Positions 16,481 to 35,249 of a stretch of DNA of 35,249 nucleotides are shown one piece after another. The translations under genes were made by a program, and so were the position numbers. Under the pieces are notes generated by a model. That model had not been told where the DNA came from. It saw nothing but the letters and a program-made list of their open reading frames with translations, and did no database searches. The stretch comes from a virus. Within the stretch, counting starts at the first letter, position 1. Each line of letters opens with the position of its first letter. The stretch lies in IMG/VR virus record IMGVR_UViG_3300005265_000083, positions 1 through 35,249 of that record, one strand, 5' to 3'.

Positions 16481-16491
16481 ATTAGCCCACC

Positions 16492-16548
16492 CTAAAGTCG
16501 CATATCTCACTACATATCACGCTTTCTTACGTTTGTCAAGAAAAAATC
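16492..16548 (-). promoter_or_regulatory. Promoter in 57-base repeat, copy 2
   Basis: Identical to 14411-14467. Minus-strand TTGACA is at 16534-16539, with a 17-base spacer and extended -10 TGA-TATGTA (16511-16516). The start of transcription would be near 16504, leaving a leader of about 24 bases before the methyltransferase ATG at 16480. The left part of this copy also provides the last codons and the stop of the truncated beta-propeller gene. Confidence 0.82.
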
Positions 16549-17191
16549 CAGACAGCACAGCAGTCCAGGTAGTCCCACCGTCATAGCGGTAGACCTTGCC
16601 TAAGTCGTATGCCCCACCATAAAGCTTGCCGTCGTATACCGCTAAGGAACCCACACAAGCGCTTGAGCCCAATCTTCCAACATCTGTCCAGGTAGTTCCA
16701 CCGTCATAGCAGTAAACCTTGCCAGAATCCCCAGTCCCGCCATAAAGCTTACCGTCATATACTGCTAAGGAAAAAACATAAGTATTTGAACCTAATTGCC
16801 CTACATCAGTCCAAGTAGTTCCACCATCGTAGCGATAGACACTGCCAAAATACGCAGCCCCGCCGTAGAGCTTACCGTCATATACTGCTAAGGAGGGCAC
16901 AAAACTATTCAACCCTAATCGCCCTACATCAGTCCAAGTAGCTTCGCCATCGTAGCGGTAAACCTTGCCAGAAAAACCTGTCCCGCCGTATAACTTACCC
17001 TCGTATACTGATAAGGAAGCCACACAAACATTCGAGCCCAATCTCCCTACATAAGTCCAGGTAGTCCCACCGTCATAGCGGTAGACCTTGCCTGAATCCC
17101 GAGTCCCGCCATAAAGCTTGCCCTTGTATACTGCTAAGGAAAAAACATTAGCGTCTAAACCTGGCAAAATTTTACCTCTTTCCTTTCCCAT
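16517..17191 (-). CDS. Beta-propeller repeat protein, truncated (five blades)
   Basis: This 224-residue protein begins MGKERGKILPGLDANVFSLA and then has five repeats of about 41 residues with the core SLAVYDGKLYGG and VYRYDGGTTWTDVG. The three sister genes have seven blades. After the fifth blade (GGTTWTAVLSG) the last residues, FFLDKRKKA, are encoded by the 57-base promoter repeat, so the gene was cut by that element. ATG at 17191 follows AAGGAGG by 4 bases. Its N-terminus differs from the MSII leader of the sisters. Five blades cannot close a seven-bladed ring, so it is probably a remnant or partner. Confidence 0.75.
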   Translation of the reverse strand: MGKERGKILPGLDANVFSLAVYKGKLYGGTRDSGKVYRYDGGTTWTYVGRLGSNVCVASLSVYEGKLYGGTGFSGKVYRYDGEATWTDVGRLGLNSFVPSLAVYDGKLYGGAAYFGSVYRYDGGTTWTDVGQLGSNTYVFSLAVYDGKLYGGTGDSGKVYCYDGGTTWTDVGRLGSSACVGSLAVYDGKLYGGAYDLGKVYRYDGGTTWTAVLSGFFLDKRKKA

Positions 17192-17214
17192 ATCGCCTCC
17201 TTTTCGCATTCTTC

Positions 17215-18099
17215 TTATCCAATTGAATATACCCTGCCTAAAGGCTCAGTCCCACCATAAAGCTTGCCGTCATATACTGCTAAGGAATTCACATGAGTAT
17301 TCGAGTCTAATCGCCCAACATCTGTCCAAGTAATCCCACCGTCATAGCGGTAGACCTTGCCTAAGTCGTATGCCCCGCCATAAAGTTTGCCGTCATATAC
17401 TGCTAAGGAAGAGACCCAATAATTCGAACCTAATTGCCCAACATCTGTCCAGGTAGTTCCGCCGTCATAGCGGTAAACCTTGCCAGACTTCCCAGTCCCG
17501 CCGTAGAGCTTGCCGTCGTACACAGCTAAGGAGGGCACATAACAATTCAAGCCCAATCTTCCAACATCTGTCCAAGTAGTCCCACCATCGTAGCGGTAGA
17601 CACTACCAGAATTGTATGCCCCGCCATAGAGCTTTCCGTCGTATACCGCTAAGGAGGGCACATAACCGTCCGCCCCTAATCGTCCAACATCAGTCCAGGT
17701 AGTCCCACCGTCATAGCGGTAGACTTTGCCAGACTTCCCAGTCCCGCCGTAGAGCTTGCCGTCGTACACAGCTAAGGAAAACACAAGAGTATTCGACCCT
17801 AATTGCCCAACATCTGTCCAGGTAGTTCCGCCGTCATAGCGGTAAACCTTGCCTAAGTCGTATGCCCCGCCATAAAGTTTGCCGTCGTATACCGCTAAGG
17901 AATAGATCCAATAATTCGAGTCTAATCGCCCAACATAAGTCCAAGTAGTTCCGCCGTCGTAGCGATAGACATCGCCAGAAGGGGATGTCCCGCCGTAGAG
18001 TTTACCGTCATACACTGCTAAGGCTTCTACACTGAGTCCCGAGCCTAATTGACCAACATCAACAATTGTTGCCATTTGCTTCTGTGTAATAATACTCAT
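17215..18099 (-). CDS. Seven-bladed beta-propeller repeat protein
   Basis: A 294-residue protein: leader MSIITQKQMATIVDVGQLGS, then seven repeats of 41 residues (core ALAVYDGKLYGGT, VYRYDGGTTWT) and a closing GRVYSIG. The repeat resembles Kelch/tachylectin-like propeller units, and the number fits a seven-bladed ring. Variable residues cluster in two places per blade: after LGS, before the V-x-SLAVY strand, and in the turn after LYGG. These are the loops expected on the ring faces. No signal peptide is present. AAGGAGG is 7 bases before the ATG at 18099. Its start overlaps the end of the next gene by 41 bases. Binding partner unknown. Confidence 0.8.
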   Translation of the reverse strand: MSIITQKQMATIVDVGQLGSGLSVEALAVYDGKLYGGTSPSGDVYRYDGGTTWTYVGRLDSNYWIYSLAVYDGKLYGGAYDLGKVYRYDGGTTWTDVGQLGSNTLVFSLAVYDGKLYGGTGKSGKVYRYDGGTTWTDVGRLGADGYVPSLAVYDGKLYGGAYNSGSVYRYDGGTTWTDVGRLGLNCYVPSLAVYDGKLYGGTGKSGKVYRYDGGTTWTDVGQLGSNYWVSSLAVYDGKLYGGAYDLGKVYRYDGGITWTDVGRLDSNTHVNSLAVYDGKLYGGTEPLGRVYSIG

Positions 18100-18607
18100 C
18101 GTCCGCCTCCTTGCTTTCCATATCGCCTTCCATATCATTTGCGTTTTCTGCTTCTTCCTCTCTCAGCAATAAATCAATTCGTTTTGCGTCTTCTGGGTCT
18201 CGAAAACGTATCTTGTCCACAAATTGAAAAGAACTGCCATTTTTTAAAATGGTCTCGTCCCATCGCACCTTCACCTTTGCGCCTGTCAACTTTTCGATGT
18301 CTAAATCCACTCCAGGACTATACTTCGCCCCGAATAAGGCAACAATATAATTGTTGTATAAGTTGCTTTTTTCGTGCAAAGACAAAGTGTTCCAACGGGA
18401 ATAATGCGGGTATTTGTATCCCTCTAACTCAAACTTAAACCTGCACATATCAACTTCACGGGTTTCCATAAGCCCTGTTTGTTGATTTCGGTATTCCTTT
18501 TTTACCCCTAACTTCGCCTGTACTTCTGCGATTGTACCGTTGATAAAAACATCAATCGCTACCTTTTCATAGTCTGTTGCTTTTTGCCCTTTTGCAATAA
18601 TACTCAT
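18059..18607 (-). CDS. Conserved phage DNA-metabolism-type protein, unknown function
   Basis: This 182-residue protein shares the leader MSIIAKGQK with the propeller genes around it but is not a repeat protein. Its body has VDMCRFKFELEGYKYPHYSR, WNTLSLHEKSNLYNNYIVAL, FGAKYSPGVDLDIEKLTGAK and VKVRWDETILKNG, ending in an acidic tail. I recall similar sequences beside Cas4/RecB-like nuclease genes in viruses, and the PD-(D/E)XK nuclease is indeed nearby, separated here by two propeller genes. A role in single-strand DNA handling or recombination is possible but unproven. ATG-ATG starts at 18610 and 18607 are both open; AGGAGG is 6 bases from the second. Confidence 0.65.
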   Translation of the reverse strand: MSIIAKGQKATDYEKVAIDVFINGTIAEVQAKLGVKKEYRNQQTGLMETREVDMCRFKFELEGYKYPHYSRWNTLSLHEKSNLYNNYIVALFGAKYSPGVDLDIEKLTGAKVKVRWDETILKNGSSFQFVDKIRFRDPEDAKRIDLLLREEEAENANDMEGDMESKEADDEYYYTEANGNNC

Positions 18608-18632
18608 CATCTACCTCCTTTTCGCATTCTTC

Positions 18633-19520
18633 TTACCCAATTGAATATACTTCGCCAAAATACCCAGTCCCTCCATAGAGCTTTCCGTCATACACCGCTA
18701 AGGAAAACACAATAATATTTGAGCCTAATTGCCCGACATCTGTCCAGGTAGTTCCACCGTCATAGCGGTAAACCCTGCCTGAATTACTAGTCCCGCCGTA
18801 GAGTTTACCGTCATACACTGCTAAGGACCACACGGAGCCACTCGACCCTAATCGCCCAACATAAGTCCAAGTAGTTCCACCATCGTAGCGGTAGACACTG
18901 CCTGAATCACTAGTCCCGCCATAGAGTTTGCCGTCGTATACCGCTAAGGACAACGCCTCACTGTTCGGCCCCAATCTCCCTACATAAGTCCAAGTAGTCC
19001 CTCCGTCATAGCGGTAGACTTTGCCAGGTAGCCCTGTCCCGCCATAAAGCTTGCCATTATATACTGCTAAGGAATACACAACACCACTCGAACCTAATCG
19101 CCCAACATAAGTCCAAGTAGCTTCGCCATCGTAGCGGTAGACACTGCCTGAATCACTAGTCCCGCCGTAGAGTTTGCCGTCATACACTGCTAAGGATAAC
19201 ACCTCACTGTTCGACCCTAATTGCCCAACATCAGTCCAAGTAGCTTCGCCATCGTAGCGGTAAACTTTGCCTGAGCCCGCAGTTCCGCCGTAGAGTTTGC
19301 CGTCGTATACCGCTAAGGATAACACATAAGTATTTGACCCTAATTGCCCTACATCAGTCCAAGTAGCTTCGCCATCGTAGCGATATACCCTGCCAGAATT
19401 ATGTGTCCCACCATAGAGCTTTCCGTCGTATACCGCTAAGGAATTGACCCAACTACTCGACCCCAATCTTCCAACATCAACAATATCTATTGTCTTTTGC
19501 TTCTCTGCAATAATACTCAT
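18633..19520 (-). CDS. Seven-bladed beta-propeller repeat protein
   Basis: A 295-residue protein: leader MSIIAEKQKTIDIVDVGRLG, then seven 41-residue blades and the closing EVYSIG. Turn residues after LYGGT vary from blade to blade (HNSG, AGSG, SDSG, GLPG, SDSG, SNSG, GYFG), while the VYRYDG and WT strands are nearly invariant. Three blades use GEATWT instead of GGTTWT, forming a sub-lineage that suggests blade duplication within the gene. AGGAGG is 6 bases before this ATG. No secretion signal. Cytosolic ligand binding is the simplest reading; the ligand is unknown. Confidence 0.8.
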   Translation of the reverse strand: MSIIAEKQKTIDIVDVGRLGSSSWVNSLAVYDGKLYGGTHNSGRVYRYDGEATWTDVGQLGSNTYVLSLAVYDGKLYGGTAGSGKVYRYDGEATWTDVGQLGSNSEVLSLAVYDGKLYGGTSDSGSVYRYDGEATWTYVGRLGSSGVVYSLAVYNGKLYGGTGLPGKVYRYDGGTTWTYVGRLGPNSEALSLAVYDGKLYGGTSDSGSVYRYDGGTTWTYVGRLGSSGSVWSLAVYDGKLYGGTSNSGRVYRYDGGTTWTDVGQLGSNIIVFSLAVYDGKLYGGTGYFGEVYSIG

Positions 19521-19545
19521 CATCTACCTCCTTTTCTCATTCTTC

Positions 19546-20433
19546 TTATCCAATTGAATATACCCTGCCTGAATCGCATGTCCCGCCGTAGAGCTTACCC
19601 TCGTATACTGCTAAGGAGGGCACATAACCATCCGTCCCTAATTGCCCAACATCTGTCCAGGTAGTTCCTCCGTCATAGCGGTAGAGCTTGCCAGAAAAAC
19701 TTGCCCCGCCATAAAGCTTGCCATCATATACTGCTAAGGAGGGCACATAATAATTCGAACCTAATCGTCCAACCTCAGTCCAGGTAGTCCCACCGCCATA
19801 GCGGTAAACCCTGCCAGAAAAACTTGTCCCGCCGTAGAGTTTACCGTCATGCACTGCTAAAGAATCCACATAAGTATTCCAACCTAATTGCCCTACATAA
19901 GTCCAGGTAGTTCCACCATCGTAGCGGTAGACACTGCCTGAATTATATGTCCCGCCATAGAGTTTGCCATTATATACTGCTAAAGAAAAAACGTGGATAT
20001 TCAAGCCTAATCGTCCAACATCAGTCCAAGTAGTCCCTCCGTCATAGCGGTAGACTTTGCCAGGTAGCCCTGTTCCACCATAAAGCTTGCCATCGTATAC
20101 TGCTAAGGCCCACACGGAGCCACTCGACCCTAATCTCCCAACATCTGTCCAAGTAGTTCCTCCGTCATAGCGGTAGACCTTGCCTGAGTCCCGAGTCCCG
20201 CCATAGAGCTTACCGTCATATACTGCTAAGGAATGCACAGCAGTATTCGACCCCAATTGCCCAACATCAGTCCAAGTAGTTCCGCCGTCATAGCGGTAGA
20301 CTTTGCCAGGTAGCCCTGTCCCGCCATAAAGCTTGCCATTATATACTGCTAAGGAATTCACATAAGCATTCGAGCCCAATCTTCCAACATCAACAATATC
20401 TATTGTCTTTTGCTTCTCTGCAATGATGCTCAT
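19546..20433 (-). CDS. Seven-bladed beta-propeller repeat protein (first in the array)
   Basis: A 295-residue protein with the leader MSIIAEKQKTIDIVDVGRLG, identical to the next gene, seven 41-residue blades and the end GRVYSIG. Turns read GLPG, RDSG, GLPG, YNSG, SFSG, SFSG, CDSG. Some blades share exact bases with blades in the neighbouring genes, for example the GLPG blade, which points to recombination between genes. AGGAGG lies 6 bases before the ATG. It directly follows the nuclease gene (12-base gap), so the array is transcribed in the DNA-processing operon rather than with fibres. Confidence 0.8.
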   Translation of the reverse strand: MSIIAEKQKTIDIVDVGRLGSNAYVNSLAVYNGKLYGGTGLPGKVYRYDGGTTWTDVGQLGSNTAVHSLAVYDGKLYGGTRDSGKVYRYDGGTTWTDVGRLGSSGSVWALAVYDGKLYGGTGLPGKVYRYDGGTTWTDVGRLGLNIHVFSLAVYNGKLYGGTYNSGSVYRYDGGTTWTYVGQLGWNTYVDSLAVHDGKLYGGTSFSGRVYRYGGGTTWTEVGRLGSNYYVPSLAVYDGKLYGGASFSGKLYRYDGGTTWTDVGQLGTDGYVPSLAVYEGKLYGGTCDSGRVYSIG

Positions 20434-20447
20434 CATCTACCTCCTTT

Positions 20448-22663: not shown

Positions 22664-23302
22664 TCAAGGCAGCCACTCACTCAACGATTTTGTTAGTTTT
22701 TTCTCAACCTTTGTGAGTTCCTTTGCGGTGCGGTGTATTTCCCTCAGAATACGCCACGCTTTTTTCAGCTCCCCTTGAAAAAGCACTTTCCAGTAATCCT
22801 CCCAAAGAATATCAATCTGTTTGTGAAGAATTCTGTGACGGGTGAGCAATTTATGACATTTCTTCCCTTGCGTTAAAGCTTTTCCTACTTTAACTGCCCC
22901 TGGTGTACTTGTGATTGTTTTAGTAGTAACGCCACCAAGCAAAGGCAAAGTTGCAAGGTCAACTATTTCCAGTGGGGTTGGTTGAGTAATTTTTTCGGGG
23001 AGAAAAAAATCTTTTGCTTTGGCTGTAAGAGGGTCATGCCCTATCCCACAAATACCTGGAGAAATGTTTTTGAAAAGTTGATAACCGCTCTCTATCTGCT
23101 GCACGAGAGGGGCATTTTCATCAACAAACACTATCGGTTCATTGACTTTCTTAGCAGTAGCAACAGCAGCAGAAGTAAGACACTTTTGAGTAATAGTTTG
23201 GTTTACAGAAACATTGGTAATAAGAACATCCTGCGGCGTTTCTGCAAAGGCAAAACAACTTCCTACCAACAGATAAAAAATTATGGCAAAAAATTTTCCC
23301 AT
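22664..23302 (-). CDS. Secreted protein of unknown function
   Basis: A 212-residue protein with a Sec signal peptide, MGKFFAIIFYLLVGSCFAFA, likely cut before ETPQD. The mature part has two central Cys (PGICGIGHDP, GKKCHK), a hydrophobic Gly-rich segment (VDLATLPLLGGVTTKTIT) and a basic helical end (EIHRTAKELTKVEKKLTKSL). It would act in the periplasm or at the inner membrane. An upstream ATG at 23335 is possible, but AGGAGG six bases before 23302 decides the start. The regulatory-type gene before it ends at 23304. It is not a recognised spanin or lysozyme; a cell-envelope or exclusion role is only inference. Confidence 0.65.
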   Translation of the reverse strand: MGKFFAIIFYLLVGSCFAFAETPQDVLITNVSVNQTITQKCLTSAAVATAKKVNEPIVFVDENAPLVQQIESGYQLFKNISPGICGIGHDPLTAKAKDFFLPEKITQPTPLEIVDLATLPLLGGVTTKTITSTPGAVKVGKALTQGKKCHKLLTRHRILHKQIDILWEDYWKVLFQGELKKAWRILREIHRTAKELTKVEKKLTKSLSEWLP

Positions 23303-23303
23303 C

Positions 23304-23657
23304 TTATACCTCCTTCTTTGAGCGTCTACTTTCATCTTGCACCTCCTCTGGGATTGCAGCTCCCAGTCTTACTAAAAGTCTTTCCAATTCTAAAAAACCT
23401 TCTCTCACTTTTTCTATTTCCTCAACAGTAAAAAGACTCATGCTTTCAAAATGGGTTTTCCCCGCAAATAACCTATAATCGCATTTTTCAAAAGAACCAT
23501 CGGAAACTTTAGCCTGTGGGGAACTATAACATTTTCTTATTGCCTGCTCCGTCAATGATTGAAACGATTTATCTGTCTTGCGTTTTGCTTCCAGTAAAAT
23601 CTCCCAGCTTTCACGTGAAAGATTTACCGCCTTTCTTGGTTTTAATTTACCTTTCAT
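23304..23657 (-). CDS. Ribbon-helix-helix-like DNA-binding protein, 117 aa
   Basis: It begins MKGKLKPRKAVNLSRESWEI, then LLEAKRKTDKSFQSLTEQAI. The short strand KAVNLS followed by two helices fits a ribbon-helix-helix DNA-binding domain, as in Arc/CopG-type regulators. The C-terminal half (FTVEEIEKVREGFLELERLL) is a helical extension, perhaps for oligomerisation. The ATG overlaps the stop of the 21-residue gene, and GAGGTAC lies upstream. As second or third gene after the promoter it is likely part of an early regulatory switch. Confidence 0.6.
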   Translation of the reverse strand: MKGKLKPRKAVNLSRESWEILLEAKRKTDKSFQSLTEQAIRKCYSSPQAKVSDGSFEKCDYRLFAGKTHFESMSLFTVEEIEKVREGFLELERLLVRLGAAIPEEVQDESRRSKKEV

Positions 23658-23719
23658 TTTTTGTACCTCTTCGCCACAATATAATTAAAAAACGCTTTTA
23701 ATTCTTCAATTAGGTTCAT
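23654..23719 (-). CDS. Tiny ORF, 21 aa, coupled on both sides
   Basis: From the ATG at 23719 it reads MNLIEELKAFFNYIVAKRYK K and stops at TGA. The start overlaps the stop of the preceding regulator (ATGA) and the stop overlaps the next ATG. GGAGCGG gives a modest ribosome site. It is an amphipathic helix by pattern. It may be a real peptide or just a coupling leader. Confidence 0.4.
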   Translation of the reverse strand: MNLIEELKAFFNYIVAKRYKK

Positions 23720-23847
23720 ATTCCGCTCCGTAGATATTTCTTTATCAATTCTGTTAAAACTTCTTTCATAGTTTTGCCTTTTTTAGAAACTTTCCCCTTG
23801 AATTTGTTTTTGACATTATCATCAATTTCAATGATTAGTTTTCTCAT
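23716..23847 (-). CDS. Ribbon-helix-helix regulator, first gene of the early operon
   Basis: A 43-residue protein: MRKLIIEIDDNVKNKFKGKV, then SKKGKTMKEVLTELIKKYLR and SGI. The strand KLIIEID, the helix with FKGKV, the GKTM turn and the helix EVLTELIKKYL match the compact ribbon-helix-helix fold (Arc/CopG type), a dimeric DNA-binding repressor. A frame exists up to 23904, but it crosses the promoter. GGAGGTG seven bases before the ATG at 23847 gives the start. It lies just downstream of a strong promoter and duplicated sequence motifs, consistent with autoregulation (inference). Confidence 0.75.
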   Translation of the reverse strand: MRKLIIEIDDNVKNKFKGKVSKKGKTMKEVLTELIKKYLRSGI

Positions 23848-23866
23848 TTTTTTCACCTCCATCATA

Positions 23867-23895
23867 AATATACCATTTTCATATATATTTGTCAA
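23867..23895 (-). promoter_or_regulatory. Extended -10 sigma70 promoter for the early operon
   Basis: Minus-strand TTGACA (23890-23895), a 17-base spacer and TATATT (23867-23872) with TGG directly before the -10. Transcription would begin near 23860, 13 bases before the regulator's ATG, and run leftwards through the early genes. The -35 box, spacer length and extended -10 match the promoters at 14411-14467, 16492-16548 and 25529-25557. Confidence 0.85.
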
Positions 23896-23977
23896 GAGGC
23901 TCAAGAAGCCCTTCTATCAAGGGATTTCAGAAGGGGGTATTTTTGACACCTCGCAGAGGCTTGTCTGGCAAGGGATT
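23895..23977. promoter_or_regulatory. Putative operator region: direct and inverted repeats upstream of the early promoter
   Basis: AGAGGCT occurs at 23895-23901 and 23955-23961, and CAAGGGATT at 23918-23926 and 23969-23977, giving two copies of the same pair with gaps of 16 and 7 bases. An inverted repeat (CCCTTCT 23909-23915 / AGAAGGG 23929-23935) lies between. The first copy overlaps the -35 box. These could be binding sites for the ribbon-helix-helix proteins encoded next door (inference). The remaining bases to 24050 are AT-rich with no gene seen. Confidence 0.45.
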
Positions 23978-24119: not shown

Positions 24120-24809
24120 TTATTCGTATTTCACAACAATTTTGCAGTCATATATTTTCTTATGCACTATTCCTTTTTCAGAAGGTATAACAAAAAATGC
24201 CTTTTCCAACTTTTCCCCAGTGTCCATTTCTTTGTCTACCTTTTCTTCTATAATCGTTCTGCCATCAACTTGCAAATATGCCTTTGACAATTTAATTTTT
24301 TTATCAAAGTTGTTTTGCAGGGAATAATTTATTTTTATTTCCCTATCTGTATCCTCTATTTTGTTCGCGGGGGTAATATACACTTCCGCAGGAAAATACA
24401 AACCTACGCCTTTCAGTGCTTCAATAGTTACAGCCCTTTCCAAAACTTTTCCTGGAAGTTGCTGGTCTTTTCCATAAACATATAAAACCGCTTTAAGGTT
24501 TATATTATACGTACCTGCGTCTTTTACCCCAGCTTCAAGCAAAGTAAACGATACGCAGTATGTATCTTTTTTATGCGGTCTTAATGCGTGTGCGCCAGGG
24601 TCTTTGCGTAAAAAAACTTTTCCATTTTTCTCAAGTTGAATTTTCCCTAAAAGAATACTTTTGCTGCTAACTGAGTTGTTTTCTAAGACAAATTTTAGGT
24701 CTATTGGGGTATCTGCGTATTCAACCTGGCTTGGGCATTCTAAATCGTCAATACAGAATTCAACATTCTCTAAGCACTCTAATGTAAACTCTTTTGTTAT
24801 TGCGTTCAT
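24120..24809 (-). CDS. Two-domain beta-sandwich protein, unknown function
   Basis: A 229-residue protein made of two similar halves. In each, a strand with a DTPIDLKFVLENNS-like or REIKINYSLQNNF motif is followed by K-x-L-x-G-K-x-Q-L-type strands and a closing alternating strand (YNINLKAVLYVYG; YDCKIVVKYE). The layout resembles Ig-like/CARDB-type beta-sandwiches that mediate protein contacts. No signal peptide is seen, so it is cytosolic or virion-associated. GAGGTGA lies 4 bases before the ATG. It is the last gene of its operon, just before the terminator. Confidence 0.6.
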   Translation of the reverse strand: MNAITKEFTLECLENVEFCIDDLECPSQVEYADTPIDLKFVLENNSVSSKSILLGKIQLEKNGKVFLRKDPGAHALRPHKKDTYCVSFTLLEAGVKDAGTYNINLKAVLYVYGKDQQLPGKVLERAVTIEALKGVGLYFPAEVYITPANKIEDTDREIKINYSLQNNFDKKIKLSKAYLQVDGRTIIEEKVDKEMDTGEKLEKAFFVIPSEKGIVHKKIYDCKIVVKYE

Positions 24810-25030: not shown

Positions 25031-25204
25031 TTAGGCGAAAAGTTCTTTAATTTTCTTAAAAATTTCTTTTATTTTCGCCACAACGGAATCATCCTTAGGG
25101 GTAGGCGTTAAAGACGCAATACTCCCAGCCAATCTTAAAGCCGCTTCAACGCAATTTACCAACTCAGACAAATTGCGCATAATGTAAGCAATAATCTTAT
25201 TCAC
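25031..25204 (-). CDS. Small helical protein with GTG start, 57 aa
   Basis: From GTG at 25204 it reads MNKIIAYIMRNLSELVNCVE, then AALRLAGSIASLTPTPKDDS and VVAKIKEIFKKIKELFA. It has a moderately hydrophobic N-terminal helix, a proline hinge and a basic amphipathic C-terminal helix. AAGGAGG lies 9 bases upstream. It follows the holin-like gene after 19 bases, so a lysis-accessory or membrane-active role is possible; I do not recognise the family. Confidence 0.6.
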   Translation of the reverse strand: MNKIIAYIMRNLSELVNCVEAALRLAGSIASLTPTPKDDSVVAKIKEIFKKIKELFA

Positions 25205-25223: not shown

Positions 25224-25400
25224 TTATTTTTTTTCTAAAAAGCGCAACATATTCTCTATAGCATTACTTAATCTATCATTTGCCATTGTGGAATGAGTAA
25301 GATGGTTTTTAACAACATTAACAAACAAATGGACAGTATAGATTATCGCACCTATAGAAAAAGTCGCTACTCCATATTGGCTTAATTGAATTATATCCAT
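25224..25400 (-). CDS. Holin-like small membrane protein, 58 aa
   Basis: It begins MDIIQLSQYGVATFSIGAII, then YTVHLFVNVVKNHLTHSTMA and ends NMLRFLEKK. One membrane helix (residues about 9-30) is followed by a hydrophilic amphipathic helix with a basic end, the layout of many small class III holins and BhlA-type phage proteins. ACGGAGG lies 5 bases before the ATG. It is the first gene of a four-gene operon that ends at the terminator. No endolysin is recognisable next to it, so the holin call is tentative. Confidence 0.55.
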   Translation of the reverse strand: MDIIQLSQYGVATFSIGAIIYTVHLFVNVVKNHLTHSTMANDRLSNAIENMLRFLEKK

Positions 25401-25467
25401 TTTACCTCCGTTTTAAAAAAGTTTAAACCTTCGCCACAAGGTCTCAACTTCATTTTACCGTTTTCAA

Positions 25468-25484
25468 CCGCGGAGGGGCCGCGG
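25468..25484. promoter_or_regulatory. GC-rich hairpin between two GTTTAAAC palindromes
   Basis: CCGCGG-AGGGG-CCGCGG forms a six-pair GC stem in a strongly AT-rich gap; a T-run (25492-25499) follows on the plus strand. GTTTAAAC occurs at 25421-25428 and again at 25539-25546, the latter inside the spacer of the plus-strand promoter. This may be a terminator for rightward transcription, an operator, or part of an origin; nothing decides between them. Confidence 0.4.
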
Positions 25485-25528
25485 GCAAATCTTTTTTTTC
25501 GCTCTTAATTTTTTTTTAAAAAAAAGAC

Positions 25529-25557
25529 TTGACAAGCAGTTTAAACTATGCTATTAT
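25529..25557 (+). promoter_or_regulatory. Plus-strand extended -10 promoter for a candidate ncRNA
   Basis: TTGACA (25529-25534), exactly 17 bases, then TATTAT (25552-25557) with TGC before the -10. It has the same design as the minus-strand promoters but points rightwards, against all the genes. Start of transcription would be near 25564. No plus-strand gene with a plausible product follows. Confidence 0.82.
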
Positions 25558-25563
25558 ACAAAC

Positions 25564-25900
25564 ATAAAACCGACTGGGGATTTAAATCTTATGCGGTCGG
25601 TGCACAGAAAAAGCATAAGAGCTAACCCTAAAATTGCCTCCCGATACACTAAGGGCATTTTAGAAAAGTATAATAAAAAACCAGTGGCGAAGCATAAAGA
25701 TTACGCACTATGTCTGCTTCCCTTTCTCAGCAACCGCAGAGTTTTGGAATAGATAGTTAGCTTAAACAAGCCGAGAGAAAACGGGTTCTGCGAAAATCAA
25801 ATTTCGCTCTTGTTGAATATAAAAAACCCACTTCCGCACGGGGATACTAAGCCCTTTTTGTCCCCCCTCAACCTAAGGGCATTTTTAAAAGTATCCTAAA
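25564..25900 (+). ncRNA. Candidate structured non-coding RNA, unknown family
   Basis: A stretch of about 340 bases follows a strong plus-strand promoter, without a credible coding frame but dense in complementary segments. Order: an H-type pseudoknot (ACCGAC 25569 with GTCGGT 25596, and CTTATGC 25588 with GCATAAG 25613); hairpin CTAAAAT/ATTTTAG (25628/25657); hairpin AGTG-CG/CGCACT (25683/25704); a long-range stem CGCAGA/TCTGCG (25735/25787) enclosing GCTT-AAAC-AAGC and CCG/CGG hairpins; hairpin GCGAAA/TTTCGC (25790/25802); and a two-part closing hairpin GGATACT+GCCCTT with AAGGGC+AGTATCC (25842-25896), followed by a weak T-run inside. It does not fit RNase P, 6S or a complete tmRNA. The 3' end is uncertain. 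Confidence 0.6.
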
Positions 25901-25904
25901 AAAG
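25649..25904. repeat. Pair of 32-base imperfect direct repeats in the ncRNA region
   Basis: CTAAGGGCATTTT followed by AAAAGTAT and an A-run occurs at 25649-25680 and 25873-25904 with a few differences. Each copy provides the 3' side of a hairpin. Beyond 25905 the gap up to 26003 is almost pure A/T with no gene or clear structure. Confidence 0.6.
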
Positions 25905-26003
25905 CTTAAAAATTTGGAACTTTTTAAAACAAAAAAAAATAAAAAAAAACATTTTTATAAACGCCACTTTTTTAAAATTTCAAAGAACAATTAACTTAAA
26001 AAC

Positions 26004-29000
26004 TTAATCTTTATATTTGTATCTTTTATTCTTATTTTTGTATCTTTTATCCTCTTTTTCCGTTCCAAATACTGCGTGCTGAAACATTTCAATAGCATTC
26101 CTTTCTATTTTATAATAGTCCATTCCTTTCGCTTTATATCGTTTGTCAAGAGCAGAATGAATTTGTCTTAATGCTGCTCTATCAATAGTTCTGTATCCTG
26201 TTACTGGGGCAATTGACCTAAAAGCCCGTCTTCTTGCTCCTATATCTACTTCTAATTCCTTTCTGGCAGGACGTAGTTTATTGAGATTTTTTATAATGTT
26301 TTGCACATATCCCTTGCGGAAAGTTAGTATATTGCTTAATAGCCTCGCTACATCGCTACCTTGTTCAGCAGGACTTCTTTGTGCCCTTTCATACATAAAA
26401 TGGATATTATTTGTTACCTCTCTGGCAACATATCCTGCCATTGTTTCTTTGCCATCTCTCGCTAATATTTCCAAAGCGTATTTTCTCTGTAAAGGTTCTA
26501 TATCGCCAAAGCCCGCCGCTTTCATCATTTTGGTTAAATCATCGGGATATTCTTTTAATGCTTGTTTAACACGAGATATTTTTAGCTTGAAACACAACAA
26601 TCTGTTCACTTCATCTGTCCAGGGATATTTGCTTATTTTATCAGCGAATTTATTTAGAGTTTTAAATCCTGGCAATCCCCCGAATTCCTCAAATAGATAA
26701 TCTCGTTTAATCCCTTTTAACTGCGAAACATAGGTATAAAAATATTTTAATTCATTTTCGGTTAACGGAGTTTTTAGAGCAAGTTTTAAATCTTCTGGAG
26801 AAGTATAAAAGGCAAGATTTTGGTGTAGGTTTCTTAACCATTTGCGGGGGTCTAAGAACACTGCTTTCATCGCTTGAGAATAAAATATAGAAACCCAATT
26901 GGAGAGTTCATTCGGAATATCTTTTTGCCCTTTTATCTCTCTTAAATTTCTGCTTAAAGCCCCAGCCACTTTCACAGGGTCAGCGAATAAATTGAAATTA
27001 GCGTTAAACAAAGCCATAAAACCATTCATTTCGGGGCGTAATTCTGTGAGATAAATCATTTGTCTTATGTATTTTGCATATCGCTTTAATATGTCTCTAT
27101 CATAACTCTGGAATACTACACCCTGTCTTGTTTTTAGATGTCCCTTACTCATTGTAGTTGCACCATATTGAGATAAAGATATTTTTGGTTTAATTACTTC
27201 TCCTATATCATAACCGCTTCGGATTATCCCCCAACTTCTGCCAGCAAGCCATTTCTTTAATGCTTCGTCCCCTTTGCTTTCTAATATATCAGTTGCTTTA
27301 GTTAATTCTGATTGTGGAGCATTAGGAATAGGTATTTTATAATCTCGCCAGTCATAGAAACGGTTATACCTAACCATTGTCTCAAAACTCTTTAAGGTGC
27401 TTGATATTTCTTTAGCAATTGCTTTTTCAGCAGGAGTAATATTAAGAGGTTTTTTTGGTTTTCCTGTTACGTATTCAGGAAGTTGCGAAGCAACATAATC
27501 ATTTATTCTCTGGACTGCTTGTTTATTTGCGGCAATTCTACCAAAATTCTCTCCGCCTGATTTTTCAAGTTTGTCCATATAATCGTTGATTTTTTTGTTT
27601 AGAGACAGCCGTTTATCGTTTAATCTTCTCCAAACATCTCCAAATGGCTGTCCTGTTTGACTTTCCATGTTTTGCGTATAATATCTCATATCAAGCAAAG
27701 GATTTATACGAGCTTTCTTTAGTGGACTTTTTGCTCTTTCCCTTTTGTAATATCGGTTTATTTTATCAACCTCTGCTTTTATTTTAGGGTTTTTCTCTAA
27801 CGCTTTTTTGGTTGTTTCTCTCGCTTTAATTACGGGAACTTCATCAAGCATTCGTTTAATCAATTCCTTACCTTCGGTTTCAGTAATAAATTTATGTCCT
27901 GCAATGTATCCTTCGGCTTTTAACCCTAAATCTTGTTTCATCCGCTCAAAATCTTTATCAGTCAATTCACCTCTTTTTTTCAGCCCTTCTTTTAATTTAG
28001 CGATTTTGTTTTCGGTCTTTAAGGTAATAACCCGTTTATATCCTATTCGTGATGGGCGTGCTTTTTTTACGGCAGTAATAATATCCTTTAATTGCTGTTC
28101 TGTAATATCTTTATGCATAAGATCCCTGTGGGAAGTTATTTTTTTAACCACATTACTAAATTGTTTTTTAGTCAAACCTCTGCTTGCTGCCCAAGCGTGA
28201 GCGGTACGTCTTAATTTTTGGACTTCTGGGCTAACTATTTTCTCTAACTTTACCCTTCTCGCCTTCTTTGAAATATCCCTACCTGGAACTTTAGAAATAC
28301 TTTCAATCATATCTTTGTTGCGGATTATCACTTCGGCTTCTAATCTTTTTCTTACTCCATCTGTCCTGCTACGCATATCTATTACATCTACCCCTTGCTT
28401 GTCAAGTTCCTTTTCTAATGCTTCGCCAGTACCTAAATTCTTTTTAAGCTCCAAGAACTCATTTGCTTGCATAACCTTTGCTTCTGGTTTTATCGTAATA
28501 GCAAATACTTCACCTGGCTCTTTATAGTCAGGCATTTGCCATCTGCCGTCTTTCCATATTTCACCTTTTACATCGGCTTCGGCAAACCCTTTTGCTACAT
28601 CAAAATTAGAAGAAACAGAAATGCCTTTTGCTTCGGCGAACTTTCCTTTTGCTGGGGCGAGACCTACTTTGCTTATCTTTTTTGCTCCCGCTTTAGTCGT
28701 CCCGTGAAAAAAGGTCTCTCCTGTCTTAAAAACTTTTTTGGCTAATACTACAGGAGCACCTTCTGTTTTGGCTTTAATTTCGGCTTTTTTAGGTATCTCT
28801 GGCTGAATACCTTTCCCTGCTGTTTCTGCCCACCTTTCACGCAGAAAATCCTGCCCTGTCATACTCTCGGCAGGCTTTGCTACAGGAGCAGCAGGTTTTT
28901 GGATGTCAGACGGTTTAGCATTAAGTAGTTTTTCTAATGTTAAATTTCCTATTTGGTTTGTCCCCTTTTCAAAAGGCTTTAAAGCGTTCTTTTTAACGGT

Positions 29001-31016
29001 AACAATAGTTTTAGGCGAAACGCCTTTAGAAATTAAATCTTCTGCCATTTTAGGCATAAGTTTTATCCATTCTTTATTTTGTAATATTTCGTTTGCCGTA
29101 CCTCCCTCAATTTGTACATATCCCGCATTCTCTCCTAAAGGTGCAACATAAGTAAACCGCAAATTTTGGTCATATTCCCAGCCAACAGGGCGCATTTTTT
29201 CTCGCTCGAGTATGCTTATGTGTCCCTCTGGTCTTTTTCTAACAGCTCCTGGTCCGCTCATAGGCTTGTCCCACAAAACTTTACCTTGTGGGGTAACAAG
29301 TGCCTGCAAATGCCTTTGGTAATCTCCGTATCTTTTAAAGAAGTTTTTTTCCACTTCTGGGACAACAGCGGCGGCTTTTGTTTTAGCGCCTTCTTGGACT
29401 GGAATTTGAGCAGGCTTTTCTGCTTCTGCTGGTCTACCCTTAAACTTGCCAGCCTTTATCGCTTTTTCCAGCCTATACATACTTCCTTCTACGAACCTTA
29501 AGAACTTATTTGTCGGTTGTTTGAAGATTTTCCCCCATCCACCAGCCTTGTACGCTTCGCTTGAAAGCCATCTACTTGCAAGCTTTTCGCCCTCAATTTG
29601 AGTTTTGCCTGTTCGACAAGAATATGCTTTGCCTAATGTTTTTTCGAGCTGGTCAATCGCTTGTTTTTTAAGCCGCAAACTTGTTTTTGCTCCTGTTACA
29701 GCTTCTACAACGCCTACAATAACCCCGCCGAGCAAAGCGTCTATGTTAGAGCCTCCTTCTATTTTGCTTCCTACAAAACCAACTCCTGTTGCCGCTAATA
29801 CCCTTCTCGGGAAAGTTGCCATTTCTCCAGCCGCTCCCCAACCAGCGCCAAAGCCAACAGCTTTAGATATTTCTTTGCCTAATTCAACAGGTTTAAATTC
29901 ACCTGCTTGCGCTTGTTTTACCGCTTCGTTTATACCTCTTACCGTACCAAAAGTAGCGCCTCTTGTTATCATAGACGGGATAAATCTGTAAGCATTTGGC
30001 AAATATTTTTTACTTGCGAGTGACAATTTTATCGCTTTTGCCCCTGTTATAGGAGCAAGAGCCGAGCCTGTTATTACAAAGCTACCAATTTGCCCAGCCG
30101 CATTGCCTATTCTATTAAATATTGGGTGCTTTTGCACGACGTTTTCTTCCCATTCGCTTTTTGGCAAAAGCCCGAAACTTAAATCCCGAAAAGCCCCGAA
30201 ACCAAAAGCGGACGCTTTTTCTCCCCGTTTTTTTTCTTCCTGTAATATCTTTTCAACATCTTCTGTCCCGTAAACGCCTTTCCTTTGCGACGGTGGCATT
30301 TCTTCTATCATTTTTTTATTAAAAGACCAGTATGCTTTTGCTATTTTTTGCCCAAAATCAAGCTTTCCTATTTCTTTAGTTGTTTTTTTTAACAATCCTA
30401 CCCCACGCCTGAATAAAGTATTTTCTATGTCACCTGAAGGCATATCTTCGGGGAAACCGATTGTTTTGTTTTCGTCCTTTAAAAAAATCACTCTATCTTT
30501 TTTCTGTCCAGAGGAAGTAGGCGTATTTTCGGTTTCGGCAAATAAATCTCTCGGCTCTCTTCCCAGCTTTTCAGACAATAGGTCTCTCGGTTCTGCCGCG
30601 TAAGCTTCTTTAACAGAAAAAGGATTTAAAAAAACAAGATTTAATTTTTCCCACTCTTTGTATTTTTCGCCCAATTGTTTTTTTAGTGCGTAACGGACAT
30701 TTTTCGCCCAATTTTTATTTAGGTTTTTAGGGTCGTTTTTCGCACCAATCGGCGCCCACCTTTTTTGCATAAAATCTATAAATTTGCCTGGCTTACTTGC
30801 TTTAACCCAACGGACATAATTGTTATAAATAGAATTATTCAAAATCTTGTTAGCAGAAGCAACAGATTTAACGGGCTCGCTCCTAACGCCGAATCTTGTA
30901 GGGTCACCTTCGGCTGTTTTAACCGCTGAGGCAATCGCAGGAATGCGAGATACGATTTCTTTTTCTTGTTCAGCGGTTAATATGCCACGATATTTTTTTG
31001 TTCCGTACTTTGGCAT
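26004..31016 (-). CDS. Giant internal virion / ejection protein (gp16-like, polyvalent)
   Basis: A 1670-residue protein and the last of the three ejection-type genes. Residues 60-115 (SIYNNYVRWVKASKPGKFID, FMQKRWAPIGAKNDPKNLNK, NWAKNV) are a conserved N-terminal module of large phage virion proteins. Residues 300-445 contain several Gly/Ala-rich hydrophobic stretches (GSFVITGSALAPITGA; ALLGGVIVGVVEAVTGA) that could insert in the membrane during ejection. Residues 762-905 are an ADP-ribosyltransferase-like domain. Residues 1340-1600 are helical and typical of polyvalent phage proteins (WLRNLHQNLAFYTSPEDLKL). No lytic transglycosylase motif was found. The start overlaps the stop of the gp15-like gene (TAATG). 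The C-terminus repeats KRYKNKNKRYKYKD. Confidence 0.8.
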   Translation of the reverse strand: MPKYGTKKYRGILTAEQEKEIVSRIPAIASAVKTAEGDPTRFGVRSEPVKSVASANKILNNSIYNNYVRWVKASKPGKFIDFMQKRWAPIGAKNDPKNLNKNWAKNVRYALKKQLGEKYKEWEKLNLVFLNPFSVKEAYAAEPRDLLSEKLGREPRDLFAETENTPTSSGQKKDRVIFLKDENKTIGFPEDMPSGDIENTLFRRGVGLLKKTTKEIGKLDFGQKIAKAYWSFNKKMIEEMPPSQRKGVYGTEDVEKILQEEKKRGEKASAFGFGAFRDLSFGLLPKSEWEENVVQKHPIFNRIGNAAGQIGSFVITGSALAPITGAKAIKLSLASKKYLPNAYRFIPSMITRGATFGTVRGINEAVKQAQAGEFKPVELGKEISKAVGFGAGWGAAGEMATFPRRVLAATGVGFVGSKIEGGSNIDALLGGVIVGVVEAVTGAKTSLRLKKQAIDQLEKTLGKAYSCRTGKTQIEGEKLASRWLSSEAYKAGGWGKIFKQPTNKFLRFVEGSMYRLEKAIKAGKFKGRPAEAEKPAQIPVQEGAKTKAAAVVPEVEKNFFKRYGDYQRHLQALVTPQGKVLWDKPMSGPGAVRKRPEGHISILEREKMRPVGWEYDQNLRFTYVAPLGENAGYVQIEGGTANEILQNKEWIKLMPKMAEDLISKGVSPKTIVTVKKNALKPFEKGTNQIGNLTLEKLLNAKPSDIQKPAAPVAKPAESMTGQDFLRERWAETAGKGIQPEIPKKAEIKAKTEGAPVVLAKKVFKTGETFFHGTTKAGAKKISKVGLAPAKGKFAEAKGISVSSNFDVAKGFAEADVKGEIWKDGRWQMPDYKEPGEVFAITIKPEAKVMQANEFLELKKNLGTGEALEKELDKQGVDVIDMRSRTDGVRKRLEAEVIIRNKDMIESISKVPGRDISKKARRVKLEKIVSPEVQKLRRTAHAWAASRGLTKKQFSNVVKKITSHRDLMHKDITEQQLKDIITAVKKARPSRIGYKRVITLKTENKIAKLKEGLKKRGELTDKDFERMKQDLGLKAEGYIAGHKFITETEGKELIKRMLDEVPVIKARETTKKALEKNPKIKAEVDKINRYYKRERAKSPLKKARINPLLDMRYYTQNMESQTGQPFGDVWRRLNDKRLSLNKKINDYMDKLEKSGGENFGRIAANKQAVQRINDYVASQLPEYVTGKPKKPLNITPAEKAIAKEISSTLKSFETMVRYNRFYDWRDYKIPIPNAPQSELTKATDILESKGDEALKKWLAGRSWGIIRSGYDIGEVIKPKISLSQYGATTMSKGHLKTRQGVVFQSYDRDILKRYAKYIRQMIYLTELRPEMNGFMALFNANFNLFADPVKVAGALSRNLREIKGQKDIPNELSNWVSIFYSQAMKAVFLDPRKWLRNLHQNLAFYTSPEDLKLALKTPLTENELKYFYTYVSQLKGIKRDYLFEEFGGLPGFKTLNKFADKISKYPWTDEVNRLLCFKLKISRVKQALKEYPDDLTKMMKAAGFGDIEPLQRKYALEILARDGKETMAGYVAREVTNNIHFMYERAQRSPAEQGSDVARLLSNILTFRKGYVQNIIKNLNKLRPARKELEVDIGARRRAFRSIAPVTGYRTIDRAALRQIHSALDKRYKAKGMDYYKIERNAIEMFQHAVFGTEKEDKRYKNKNKRYKYKD
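28302..28733 (-). other. ADP-ribosyltransferase-like domain of the ejection protein
   Basis: Residues 762-905 read VFKTGETFFHGTTKAGAKKI, SKVGLAPAKGKFAEAKGISV, SSNFDVAKGFA and, at the end, RLEAEVIIRNKDMI. The order FHGT, then a G-I-S-V-S-S strand with a following AKGFA helix, then a strand with Glu before V, fits the H-x-E/Q type of ART fold (strand 1 His, strand 2 Ser/Tyr, strand 5 Glu). Function would be modification of a host protein or nucleic acid after ejection, as T4 Alt does. Catalytic residues are assigned by pattern only. Confidence 0.5.
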
Positions 31017-32612: not shown

Positions 32613-33353
32613 TCACCACCTAAACCTATACCCGCCCTGAAACTGATAAGACCCTCCGCCTGGCGTAGCCCCGCGCGTAGCTGTTGTCGTTGTGCCTGTC
32701 TTTGACATCCCTGCTATATTCGCCACAGAAGCGGCAGTTTCAAGCAATGTAGCCCCCATTTTAATATTAGCAGCTCTTCTCGCCTGTTTACCCGCCACTC
32801 TATATTGCCCAGCCTCTGATTCTAAAGCCCAAGTTTTTTGTTTTACCTCTTCGCCGAGCGTCCATATATCCCTTTTCGCCTGTTCTCTTATTTGCCAACT
32901 CTGGACATTCGCATTGTATCTAATAGCTAACTGGTCTAATCTTGCTTTATCAAAAGTATCTATTGCAATATCTTCTGCTGTTACGCCACCAATACCTAAT
33001 GCCCCGATAGCGGCTTTCTGTTTTCCTGTTAATTGAGATACATCACGCATAAGCCTGGCGGATTCGAGACCAGCAGCTGTTTGTTCAAGAGTAATATTCG
33101 CCACCGCTGCTTCGTTGATAGCCTTTTTTTGTTCTTCGGCATATTTGCGCCTGGTCGCCGCCTCTTGATAATTGAGTGCGGCTTGATAGTTATACATCTG
33201 GGCTGTTGCTTTCCCTTCTTGATACTGTCCGTACATCTGCATACCGCCAGCAGCAGCAGCAGCTGTTGCAGCGATTGTTATTGGCTCGCAATACAGCCTA
33301 TCATAAGAAAACAAAATGTTCGGATAATTATAATAAAAATGAGAATTGTTCAC
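32613..33353 (-). CDS. Internal virion protein, gp14-like (GTG start)
   Basis: A 246-residue protein with an Ala/Gly-rich N-terminal helix (ITIAATAAAAAGGMQMYGQY), then QEGKATAQMYNYQAALNYQE, AATRRKYAEEQKKA and GKQKAAIGALGIGGVTAEDI. This fits the T7 gp14-like ejection protein that forms the outer-membrane pore. The C-terminus is low in complexity (TGTTTTATRGATPGGGSYQF). Start: GTG at 33353 overlaps the TGA of the previous gene (GTGA), with AGGAGA five bases upstream. Confidence 0.8.
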   Translation of the reverse strand: MNNSHFYYNYPNILFSYDRLYCEPITIAATAAAAAGGMQMYGQYQEGKATAQMYNYQAALNYQEAATRRKYAEEQKKAINEAAVANITLEQTAAGLESARLMRDVSQLTGKQKAAIGALGIGGVTAEDIAIDTFDKARLDQLAIRYNANVQSWQIREQAKRDIWTLGEEVKQKTWALESEAGQYRVAGKQARRAANIKMGATLLETAASVANIAGMSKTGTTTTATRGATPGGGSYQFQGGYRFRW

Positions 33354-33832
33354 GGCTCTCTCCTAAAGCAAAAATATCTGAATAATTTCTTTTCCTCGCC
33401 ATAAGGAGCTGGCTTTTCAAAAACCGCTCCCAACCATTTAAGCCATTTTATAGACTGTTCGTTTTCCACATCAACAAAATTTTCAAGACAAGAAAAGTGG
33501 CTTAAAAACAAATCTATGAAATAGTTTGATTGCTTAGCAAAAACTCGCTGGATTTTCATTATTTCGGGACTGCCTAATAGCCAAACAGTTGCGGTCCCTC
33601 CCAATATAGTTTTTGGGACAACACCGAACATCGCAATTGGTCTTTTTTGATATACAACGCTTAGGCAAAAAATAGAATCGTAAAACCCTCGCAACAAAGA
33701 ACCTTGCGGTGTCTGATGATGAGACCGATAAATTTCTTTTTTGTCGTCTTCCCGCAGATTAGGAGCTAATTTGTCTATGTCGGTTTTCTTACTGTCTCTT
33801 ACAGTGGCTAATTCTGATTTATAATATATCAT
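33350..33832 (-). CDS. gp13-like protein with acetyltransferase-type fold (DUF2833)
   Basis: A 160-residue protein: TDIDKLAPNLREDDKKEIYR, then RPIAMFGVVPKTILGGTATV, WLLGSPEI, and FVDVENEQSIKWLKWLGAVF ending LFRYFCFRREP. The pattern (R-E-D-x-x-E, the A-M-F-G-V strand, W-L-L, N-x-x-S-x-x-W-L-x-W-L-G-A) matches T7 gp13/DUF2833 proteins with a GNAT-like fold, needed for assembly rather than known catalysis. It precedes the gp14-like gene and follows gp12, as in T7. Its ribosome site is weak (AGGA). Confidence 0.75.
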   Translation of the reverse strand: MIYYKSELATVRDSKKTDIDKLAPNLREDDKKEIYRSHHQTPQGSLLRGFYDSIFCLSVVYQKRPIAMFGVVPKTILGGTATVWLLGSPEIMKIQRVFAKQSNYFIDLFLSHFSCLENFVDVENEQSIKWLKWLGAVFEKPAPYGEEKKLFRYFCFRREP

Positions 33833-33860: not shown

Positions 33861-35249
33861 TTACCTTACGTTTGTGTATCCACCAACCGAAACTTGTGGG
33901 ATTAATCCTGTTATGGTTACAGGAAGCGGGTCCGATTGTCTGAAAAAGAATCTTCCTCCTTCGGCATAACCGACACCGAGAGATACCGCGTGGTCCCCAG
34001 AGAATAAAGAGGTTGCGTTATAATCGGCACGAGAGGATAAATTCATAGGATATAAACTATCCTCGTTAGCACCGATATAACCGCCCTTAGTGTTAAGGAG
34101 TCTCAGGACCACATTCGGTATGTGCACCTTTCTACCCTGTGCCGTACCGTCCTCGAGGTTAACTTCCACGTTCAGCGTCTCTAAGTCAGACTTATATGCC
34201 AATCCTACTTGGACAGTTGAAGCCGCAGTATCCAGAGTTAATTCACCAGAAGCCGACACTGTTTTTCCGCTAACTACCACCCCGTCTGCAAGAACGGACA
34301 CTGCCTTTGACGCAAGGTGCTCAAGCCCCACAATAGTGGTTGTTTCTTCGCCGTCGTAAGTAGTTCCACAATCGACAAAGAACTGGTCTTCAAGCTCTGT
34401 GGAAGCCATTCGTTTTTTCATCCGTTCAACATAGCGCGTGCCATTTCTATTTACAGAAACCCATACTTCATCATACCCGCTCCCTCTTATTGTGCAAATT
34501 GACTCGAACAAATCGTTGCCGTCATTGGTATCGTGCCAGCCCCACGCTACCACTTCCTGTTCTTGTAGATATGTCATAGACAAAAGAATGCCATCGTCCC
34601 TTACAAACCATACAACTCTGTCAGGGTTCTGCTGATATGCTACTTCCGTAACAGTGTGGTCGGCAAACAAATGGTTTGAGAATATGCTAAGGTCGTTACC
34701 AACAAATGTGTCAGAATATAAATCAAAGCCTAAATCCCTGATGATTGAGCCTGTAGATTGAACATAAATCGCTCTATTTCCGATAATTACTGGTCGAACG
34801 CCATACGAACCTTCCCACCCGTGAATTTTGTTCATCGCCGTTGTTGGCGTAATTGGTCCATCGCTGCCGCTAACACTTACTTCATTAGACAAGGTTAGCA
34901 TTACCATTTCGCCTAATGGGATTAATCCGTTTATGCCGTTTACTTGCCTTGACGGAAGAGGCGAAGATATTCCGTCGTCATCTTGAAGTGGCGAACTTCT
35001 TGAAAAATCGGTATAATTGCCTGTTCTGGTCATCCAGTATGTTTGTGGCTCAGTGTAAGTATTAGCAAAAACAAGCCTATCTTCAGGATGAAATTCAACT
35101 ATCGCAGGCCACCCGCGGTAGTCCCCCCAAGAACCCTCAGCCCAATCGTCCGTAGGGTCTGTAGACCCGCAAGTTCGTATAACATCGGCGGTTGCAGTTT
35201 GCCCGCCCTCTGCTACAGCGGTAATCCAAACTATGCCTTCGTGATAATA
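33861..35249 (-). CDS. gp12-like tail (nozzle) protein, C-terminal part, 5' end off the window
   Basis: An open frame of 463 codons running from the right edge to a stop at 33861. It reads GWPAIVEFHPEDRLVFANTY, then TEPQTYWMTRTGNYTDFSRS, then LADHTVTEVAYQQNPDRVVW and WHDTNDGNDLFESICTIRGS. These are the C-terminal conserved blocks of the gp12-like podovirus tail protein whose N-terminus resembles the gene at 1267-1905. The Met at 35033 is internal; conserved residues continue upstream to the edge. It ends VPLTITGLIP-like (LPVTITGLIPQVSVGGYTNV R). The missing start lies outside the window. Confidence 0.85.
   Translation of the reverse strand, partial: YYHEGIVWITAVAEGGQTATADVIRTCGSTDPTDDWAEGSWGDYRGWPAIVEFHPEDRLVFANTYTEPQTYWMTRTGNYTDFSRSSPLQDDDGISSPLPSRQVNGINGLIPLGEMVMLTLSNEVSVSGSDGPITPTTAMNKIHGWEGSYGVRPVIIGNRAIYVQSTGSIIRDLGFDLYSDTFVGNDLSIFSNHLFADHTVTEVAYQQNPDRVVWFVRDDGILLSMTYLQEQEVVAWGWHDTNDGNDLFESICTIRGSGYDEVWVSVNRNGTRYVERMKKRMASTELEDQFFVDCGTTYDGEETTTIVGLEHLASKAVSVLADGVVVSGKTVSASGELTLDTAASTVQVGLAYKSDLETLNVEVNLEDGTAQGRKVHIPNVVLRLLNTKGGYIGANEDSLYPMNLSSRADYNATSLFSGDHAVSLGVGYAEGGRFFFRQSDPLPVTITGLIPQVSVGGYTNVR

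Follow-up and report, generated by a model that had tools for sequence, protein, structure and literature searches.

A strong promoter opposing the genes of a virus genome precedes a probable structured noncoding RNA

The window analyzed here, a virus record of 35,249 bp, carries credible genes that all point leftward. Within it, a rightward promoter was found at positions 25529 to 25557, followed by a stretch that is probably transcribed into a noncoding, structured RNA of about 323 nt. The reading that we favor, tentatively, is that this stretch is an autonomous noncoding RNA unit (an "RNA moron") with an early-type promoter, which would act in cis to dampen late read-through transcription. 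The features on which the analysis is based are as follows (positions are those of the window).

25031 to 25204, minus strand: 57-aa gene; PHROG 9685 and 402 (unknown function); conserved in the relatives G006 and G003
25224 to 25400, minus strand: 58-aa gene, the first small leftward gene behind the RNA; no profile match
25529 to 25557, plus strand: sigma-70-type promoter TTGACA-17-TGcTATTAT, with 11 of 12 consensus bases and an extended -10 element
25564 to 25886, plus strand: proposed noncoding RNA, about 323 nt, with predicted ends
25569 to 25620, plus strand: predicted 5' H-type pseudoknot, summed stacking -26.8
25591 to 25752, plus strand: 53-codon ATG frame, judged not to be a gene
25619 to 25764, plus strand: predicted closed central domain, 146 nt, with three hairpin arms, z -2.67
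25649 to 25680, plus strand: 32-nt direct repeat CTAAGGGCATTTT..AAAAGTAT..TAAAAAA, second copy at 25873 to 25903, 87.5% identity
25840 to 25880, plus strand: predicted 3' H-type pseudoknot GGGGAUA/UGUCCCC plus GCCCUU/AAGGGC, stacking -27.1
25851 to 25886, plus strand: candidate intrinsic terminator from the sequence GCCCUU, 18-nt loop, AAGGGC, A, UUUUU
26004 to 31016, minus strand: 1,670-aa gene that follows the internal-virion-protein genes; no PHROG or Pfam match

RESULTS

Gene context of the RNA region

Genes for capsid, head-tail adaptor, tail, internal-virion, and terminase proteins matched PHROGs, one of them being of the T7 gp13 family; going by these profile matches, the virion is of the T7-like type. 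No RNA polymerase, DNA polymerase, helicase, primase, or integrase was recognized in the window. A genome scan with an alignment of the capsid protein found relatives at 51 prophage loci (in Reyranella, Syntrophobacteraceae, Anaerovibrio, Bombella, Labrys, and others), and prophages with this virion type are therefore common. Since no polymerase was recognized and the virion type is so common in prophages, the genes of the window are most likely read by the host RNA polymerase.

The RNA lies in a 603-nt gap between the gene ends at 25400 and 26004, opposite intergenic DNA. It points at the 3' end of the 1,670-aa gene, whose product is taken by its position to be a large ejection protein; the internal-virion matches adjoin at 32613 to 33832. 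No other strong leftward promoter was found in the gap (25401 to 26003), so the genes of 58 to 229 aa on its far side would rely on read-through or on weak promoters. The earlier note on this DNA had called these genes a lysis-type operon and had suggested a role for the RNA in lysis timing, packaging, or regulation. None of the four downstream proteins matched a lysis-family profile; we therefore drop the term, and the link to lysis is one of position. Nothing points to packaging, a role made unlikely by a terminase of the ordinary type. Two leftward genes nearby, at 22664 to 23335 and 24120 to 24809, have a signal-peptide-like or beta-rich look; they are 86 to 87% identical in the otherwise largely unrelated G006 and were found nowhere else searched.

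A strong promoter resembling early-type promoters

The TTGACA box, 17-base spacer, and extended -10 element described earlier are present, and the promoter faces rightward, against all credible genes, as had been claimed. It is preceded by the A-tract AAAAAAAAGACTTGACAAG. Sites with 11 of 12 consensus bases and an extended -10 element did not occur at all in 15 dinucleotide shuffles of the whole window, and the only other such site in the window, at 23895, is leftward and precedes a small gene with a ribbon-helix-helix-like sequence. Judged by its sequence, the promoter passes every available test, and we regard it as real.

The stretch AAAAAAAGACTTGACAA upstream of the RNA promoter is found again in the relative G003, at its leftward early-type promoter 28151; a ribbon-helix-helix-like gene follows that promoter too, and the core A7GACTTGACAA is common to both promoters. 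The core AAGACTTGACAAG is shared with the rightward promoter 23818 of G006. With these recurring upstream and core sequences, the RNA promoter resembles the early-type promoters of this phage group.

Two side observations concern this neighborhood. Directly behind the strong promoter at 23895 lie two small ribbon-helix-helix-like genes (23304 to 23904, minus strand), in an arrangement similar to ones in G006 and G003. Just upstream of the RNA promoter, at 25468 to 25499 on the plus strand, a perfect GC palindrome (CCGCGG-AGGGG-CCGCGG) stands in the AT-rich gap, followed by GCAAATC and T8.

Extent, strand, and coding potential of the transcript

The RNA was taken to start 7 nt past the -10 element, near 25564. 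Transcription would probably stop at the U5 tract that follows the AAGGGC arm of a 6-bp stem, and this tract was used as the end; our terminator scan allows loops of 3 to 8 nt, and the 18-nt loop of the candidate falls outside that range. The AT skew of the RNA stretch is +0.17, compared with a genome mean of -0.13, and ranks in the top 2% of genome windows. In most of the genome the skew runs the other way, and this A-richness of the plus strand speaks for it as the strand of the RNA.

On the plus strand of the region, the 53-codon frame is the one open frame worth noting. It lacks a Shine-Dalgarno sequence, whereas the other genes almost all carry one, usually of the AGGAGG class, and a search with its translation found no relatives. 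Its codon score is 0.014 per codon, compared with 0.217 (SD, 0.10) for real gene chunks and -0.11 (SD, 0.13) for off-frame chunks, and lies below 97.6% of the real gene chunks. The region looks noncoding, and the earlier claim that it has no credible frame holds with the qualification that this one frame exists and scores like noncoding sequence. An ARAGORN search found no tRNA or tmRNA gene.

Two predicted pseudoknots flank a closed domain

The 5' pseudoknot proposed in the earlier note was recovered, with its pairs interleaved in the H-type manner. Stem 1 would join ACCGAC(U) (25569 to 25575) with (G)GUCGGU (25595 to 25601), and stem 2 would join UCUUAUGC (25587 to 25594) with GCAUAAGA (25613 to 25620), leaving loops of about 11 nt. 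At the other end, what had been described as a two-part terminal hairpin is better read as a second H-type pseudoknot, with loops of 4, 2, and 9 nt, equaled by 2 of 1,000 shuffles; a GGGAUACU/AGUAUCCU stem is a possible alternative there. Taken together, the two pseudoknots have an energy that no shuffle out of 1,000 matched, nor any of 4,112 windows of 323 nt from both strands of five phage genomes, in a search that scores stacking energy with no loop penalties and by a criterion picked after the sequence had been seen. The minus strand of the region has no such pair.

Between the pseudoknots, the central domain would be closed by pairing of GAGCUAAC (25619 to 25626) with GUUAGCUU (25756 to 25763); 1 of 200 shuffles was as good. 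Nested folding, which is blind to pseudoknots, gave a z of -1.78 for 25560 to 25910 (4 of 100 shuffles as good) and of -0.86 for 25564 to 25886 (192 of 1,000, or 19%); the minus-strand values were -0.33 and -0.30. The claim of a structured RNA is thus borne out by the two pseudoknots and the closed domain, whereas the nested fold as a whole is barely above shuffled sequence. Three lines favor the plus strand for it: the promoter, the A-richness of that strand, and the statistic for both pseudoknots together.

Search for relatives

The Infernal search proposed earlier found no match in Rfam at the gathering threshold, the models including GOLLD, ROOL, and phi29 pRNA, and the best permissive E value was 3 or worse. 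Blastn against phages and plasmids returned only short matches at chance level, and the exact repeat pattern did not occur in viral contigs. The promoter pattern occurred there at 18 sites, many ahead of ordinary genes, and none was judged a counterpart. Neighboring genes were also used as bait. The 1,670-aa gene gave no relatives; the tail protein gave relatives from which the RNA is absent by blastn; the 229-, 223-, and 57-aa genes led to G006 only; and a genome scan with the alignment of the 229- and 223-aa proteins gave none. A covariance model made from the single central-domain sequence matched only itself in 37 sources plus 17 genomes or records. No homologues were thus collected from phages, plasmids, viral contigs, or related prophage genomes, in searches that may miss records nearly identical to the window.

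None of the 16 related prophage regions checked has a comparable opposing promoter with a gap behind the ejection genes, and by this comparison the RNA unit is accessory rather than a conserved part of the virion family. The earlier note had spoken of a new phage RNA family. A family would take relatives with covarying base pairs; no known Rfam family matches, and since no relative was found by any route, the RNA is a credible single candidate and not an established family.

A structured region behind an opposing promoter in a sister phage

G006 (IMGVR_UViG_3300005265_000046) is a mosaic sister that shares the 229-, 223-, and 57-aa genes with the window. The RNA is absent from the corresponding place. 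The sole strong promoter opposing the genes of G006 sits elsewhere and drives a different region, one still more structured than that of the window:

L014:6900-7330, minus strand (G006:23845-24275): structured region behind the opposing promoter, z -3.4

Like the window RNA, this region follows a gene-opposing promoter with the AAGACTTGACAAG core and has interleaved stems near the -10 element, starting about 12 nt behind it. The stems, of 14 and 13 bp and the second followed by U6, are too long for one H-type pseudoknot, so that two alternative hairpins are more likely. Because both strands of the region are strongly structured, the strand of a G006 RNA is less certain. A local alignment of the two regions scored 41, compared with at most 37 in 200 shuffles, the similarity lying mainly at the promoter; the RNA bodies scored 25, the shuffle level. 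The parallel is suggestive, short of homology. It is rather unlikely that the two represent a new kind of mobile, host-promoter-driven double-pseudoknot RNA unit, set against the gene direction, whose G006 counterpart does the same job with an unrelated sequence.

Two further observations were made in G006. Two hairpins of the region have a common loop, ACUUGCGU, on stems CCUCAAA/UUUGAGG and CCUAAAA/UUUUAGG, and the difference between the stem copies is compensatory. The promoters 20815 and 23720 (minus strand) are preceded by about 30 bp that are identical in both.

Possible function of the RNA

According to the reading that we tentatively favor, the unit between the ejection genes and the small downstream operon would be read by the host RNA polymerase to give an RNA with a pseudoknot at each end, the second doubling as the terminator, and a closed multi-arm domain between them. 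Transcribed against the leftward genes, this RNA would be perfectly complementary to the leader before the 58-, 57-, 53-, and 229-aa genes. Its effect early in infection would be to counter and bind late transcripts that read through, keeping the genes of 58 to 229 aa down until late transcription is strong. Action in cis is the likeliest because the RNA is convergent with, and perfectly complementary to, the leader of these last genes. The promoter, with its core shared with the G003 early-type promoter and the G006 opposing promoter, agrees with such a role, as do the A-rich plus strand, the two disjoint pseudoknots, the closed domain, the uniformly leftward genes, and the gap devoid of another strong leftward promoter; precedents exist in the antisense RNAs of PAK_P3, PAK_P4, lambda (aQ), and P22 (sar). 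However, the DNA opposite the proposed RNA is intergenic and includes no start codon, two pseudoknots and a closed domain are more than a simple antisense RNA would need, no homologue was found, and the pseudoknot energies omit loop costs under a post hoc criterion. Moreover, the analogous region of G006 lies past a likely late terminator, opposite no gene. Such an elaborate fold and a G006 counterpart that opposes no gene make it nearly as likely, though still doubtful, that the RNA folds independently and acts in trans, binding a host or phage protein or distant mRNAs, its genomic place being incidental. Its C-rich loops, CCUCCC and CCCCCCUC, would then be the mRNA-binding sites. The double-pseudoknot architecture suits a trans-acting RNA, and the finding of no comparable unit in the 16 prophage regions is as expected of a movable accessory. 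Against it, the RNA bodies of the window and G006 are dissimilar, and a pairing screen of the RNA against the 5' ends of about 40 genes of the window gave nothing significant, the duplex scores, including that for the 57-aa gene (z -2.26), being at expectation for that many genes.

It is improbable that there is no functional RNA product at all, with convergent transcription acting by interference, or a minor antisense transcript being made, and the folds being incidental. Nested folding near the shuffle level, the lack of conservation anywhere, and the noncanonical terminator would fit this, but the pseudoknot pair is extreme compared with both shuffles and genome windows, and the AT skew is reversed in exactly this stretch. 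A DNA-level element of inverted and direct repeats, such as a replication origin or a packaging or regulator-binding site, is very unlikely. The 603-nt gap ahead of the last genes has AT-rich flanks, palindromes, and the 32-nt direct repeats, whose copies are 224 nt apart and both inside the RNA region, and no replication initiator was recognized among the genes of the window; nevertheless, the promoter and the loop geometry of the 3' pseudoknot (L1, 4 nt; L3, 9 nt) suit an RNA, and an origin was rejected on the GC skew, which shows no switch at the region. Least probable of all is that the 53-codon frame encodes a small basic protein: it is an open ATG frame close behind the promoter, with the coding evidence given above against it.

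Comparison with known phage RNAs

In Pseudomonas phage PAK_P3, antisense RNAs to the structural genes are made early (PMC4933390); other precedents are PAK_P4as15, an antisense RNA of PAK_P4 associated with the endolysin, and the antisense regulators aQ of lambda and sar of P22 (PMC12197685). The PAK_P3 RNAs and PAK_P4as15, like the window RNA, are opposite late genes, and an early hold-down or a delay of lysis has been proposed for them (PMC4933390, PMC12197685). They lie nearly all within genes and are defined by RNA-seq, whereas the window RNA is opposite an intergenic leader and is predicted from sequence, with two predicted pseudoknots. P22 sar, lambda OOP, and aQ resemble it in being noncoding and in having their own promoter on the strand opposite an operon (PMC12197685, PMC13397905); these three are antisense to the gene that they regulate, whereas the window RNA overlaps no gene in its proposed extent, 25564 to 25886 being complementary to the leader only. 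GOLLD and ROOL are also structured phage or prophage RNAs with pseudoknots and of unknown function (PMC12286853), but they are larger, conserved, often near tRNA islands, and represented in Rfam, unlike the window RNA. A type III antitoxin RNA of the ToxI type was considered and rejected, the region having a single pair of 32-nt repeats and not tandem short pseudoknot repeats; no toxin-type neighbor was found by PADLOC or Pfam.

Phage genomes have been mined mostly for proteins. If the favored cis-dampening reading is true, the unit would show that "morons" can be RNAs, and an early-type promoter opposing a late operon would be a simple way to delay the last late genes. At present, it is one well-defined candidate transcript.

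Other features of the window

The tail protein is in two pieces, at 1267 to 1905 and 33861 to 35033 (minus strand), one near each end of the record and separated by other genes; in G003 and G001, the same protein is a single frame of 974 to 1,057 aa. The record may be a near-complete circle. A DNA methyltransferase gene (14480 to 16510, minus strand) has its conserved parts separated by about 390 residues, with an HNH-endonuclease match at residues 225 to 364 in the insert, which is intein- or insertion-like. Next to it, at 16517 to 20436 (minus strand), are at least four tandem paralogous genes with repeats that are 71 to 82% identical and weak Kelch/FG-GAP-like matches.
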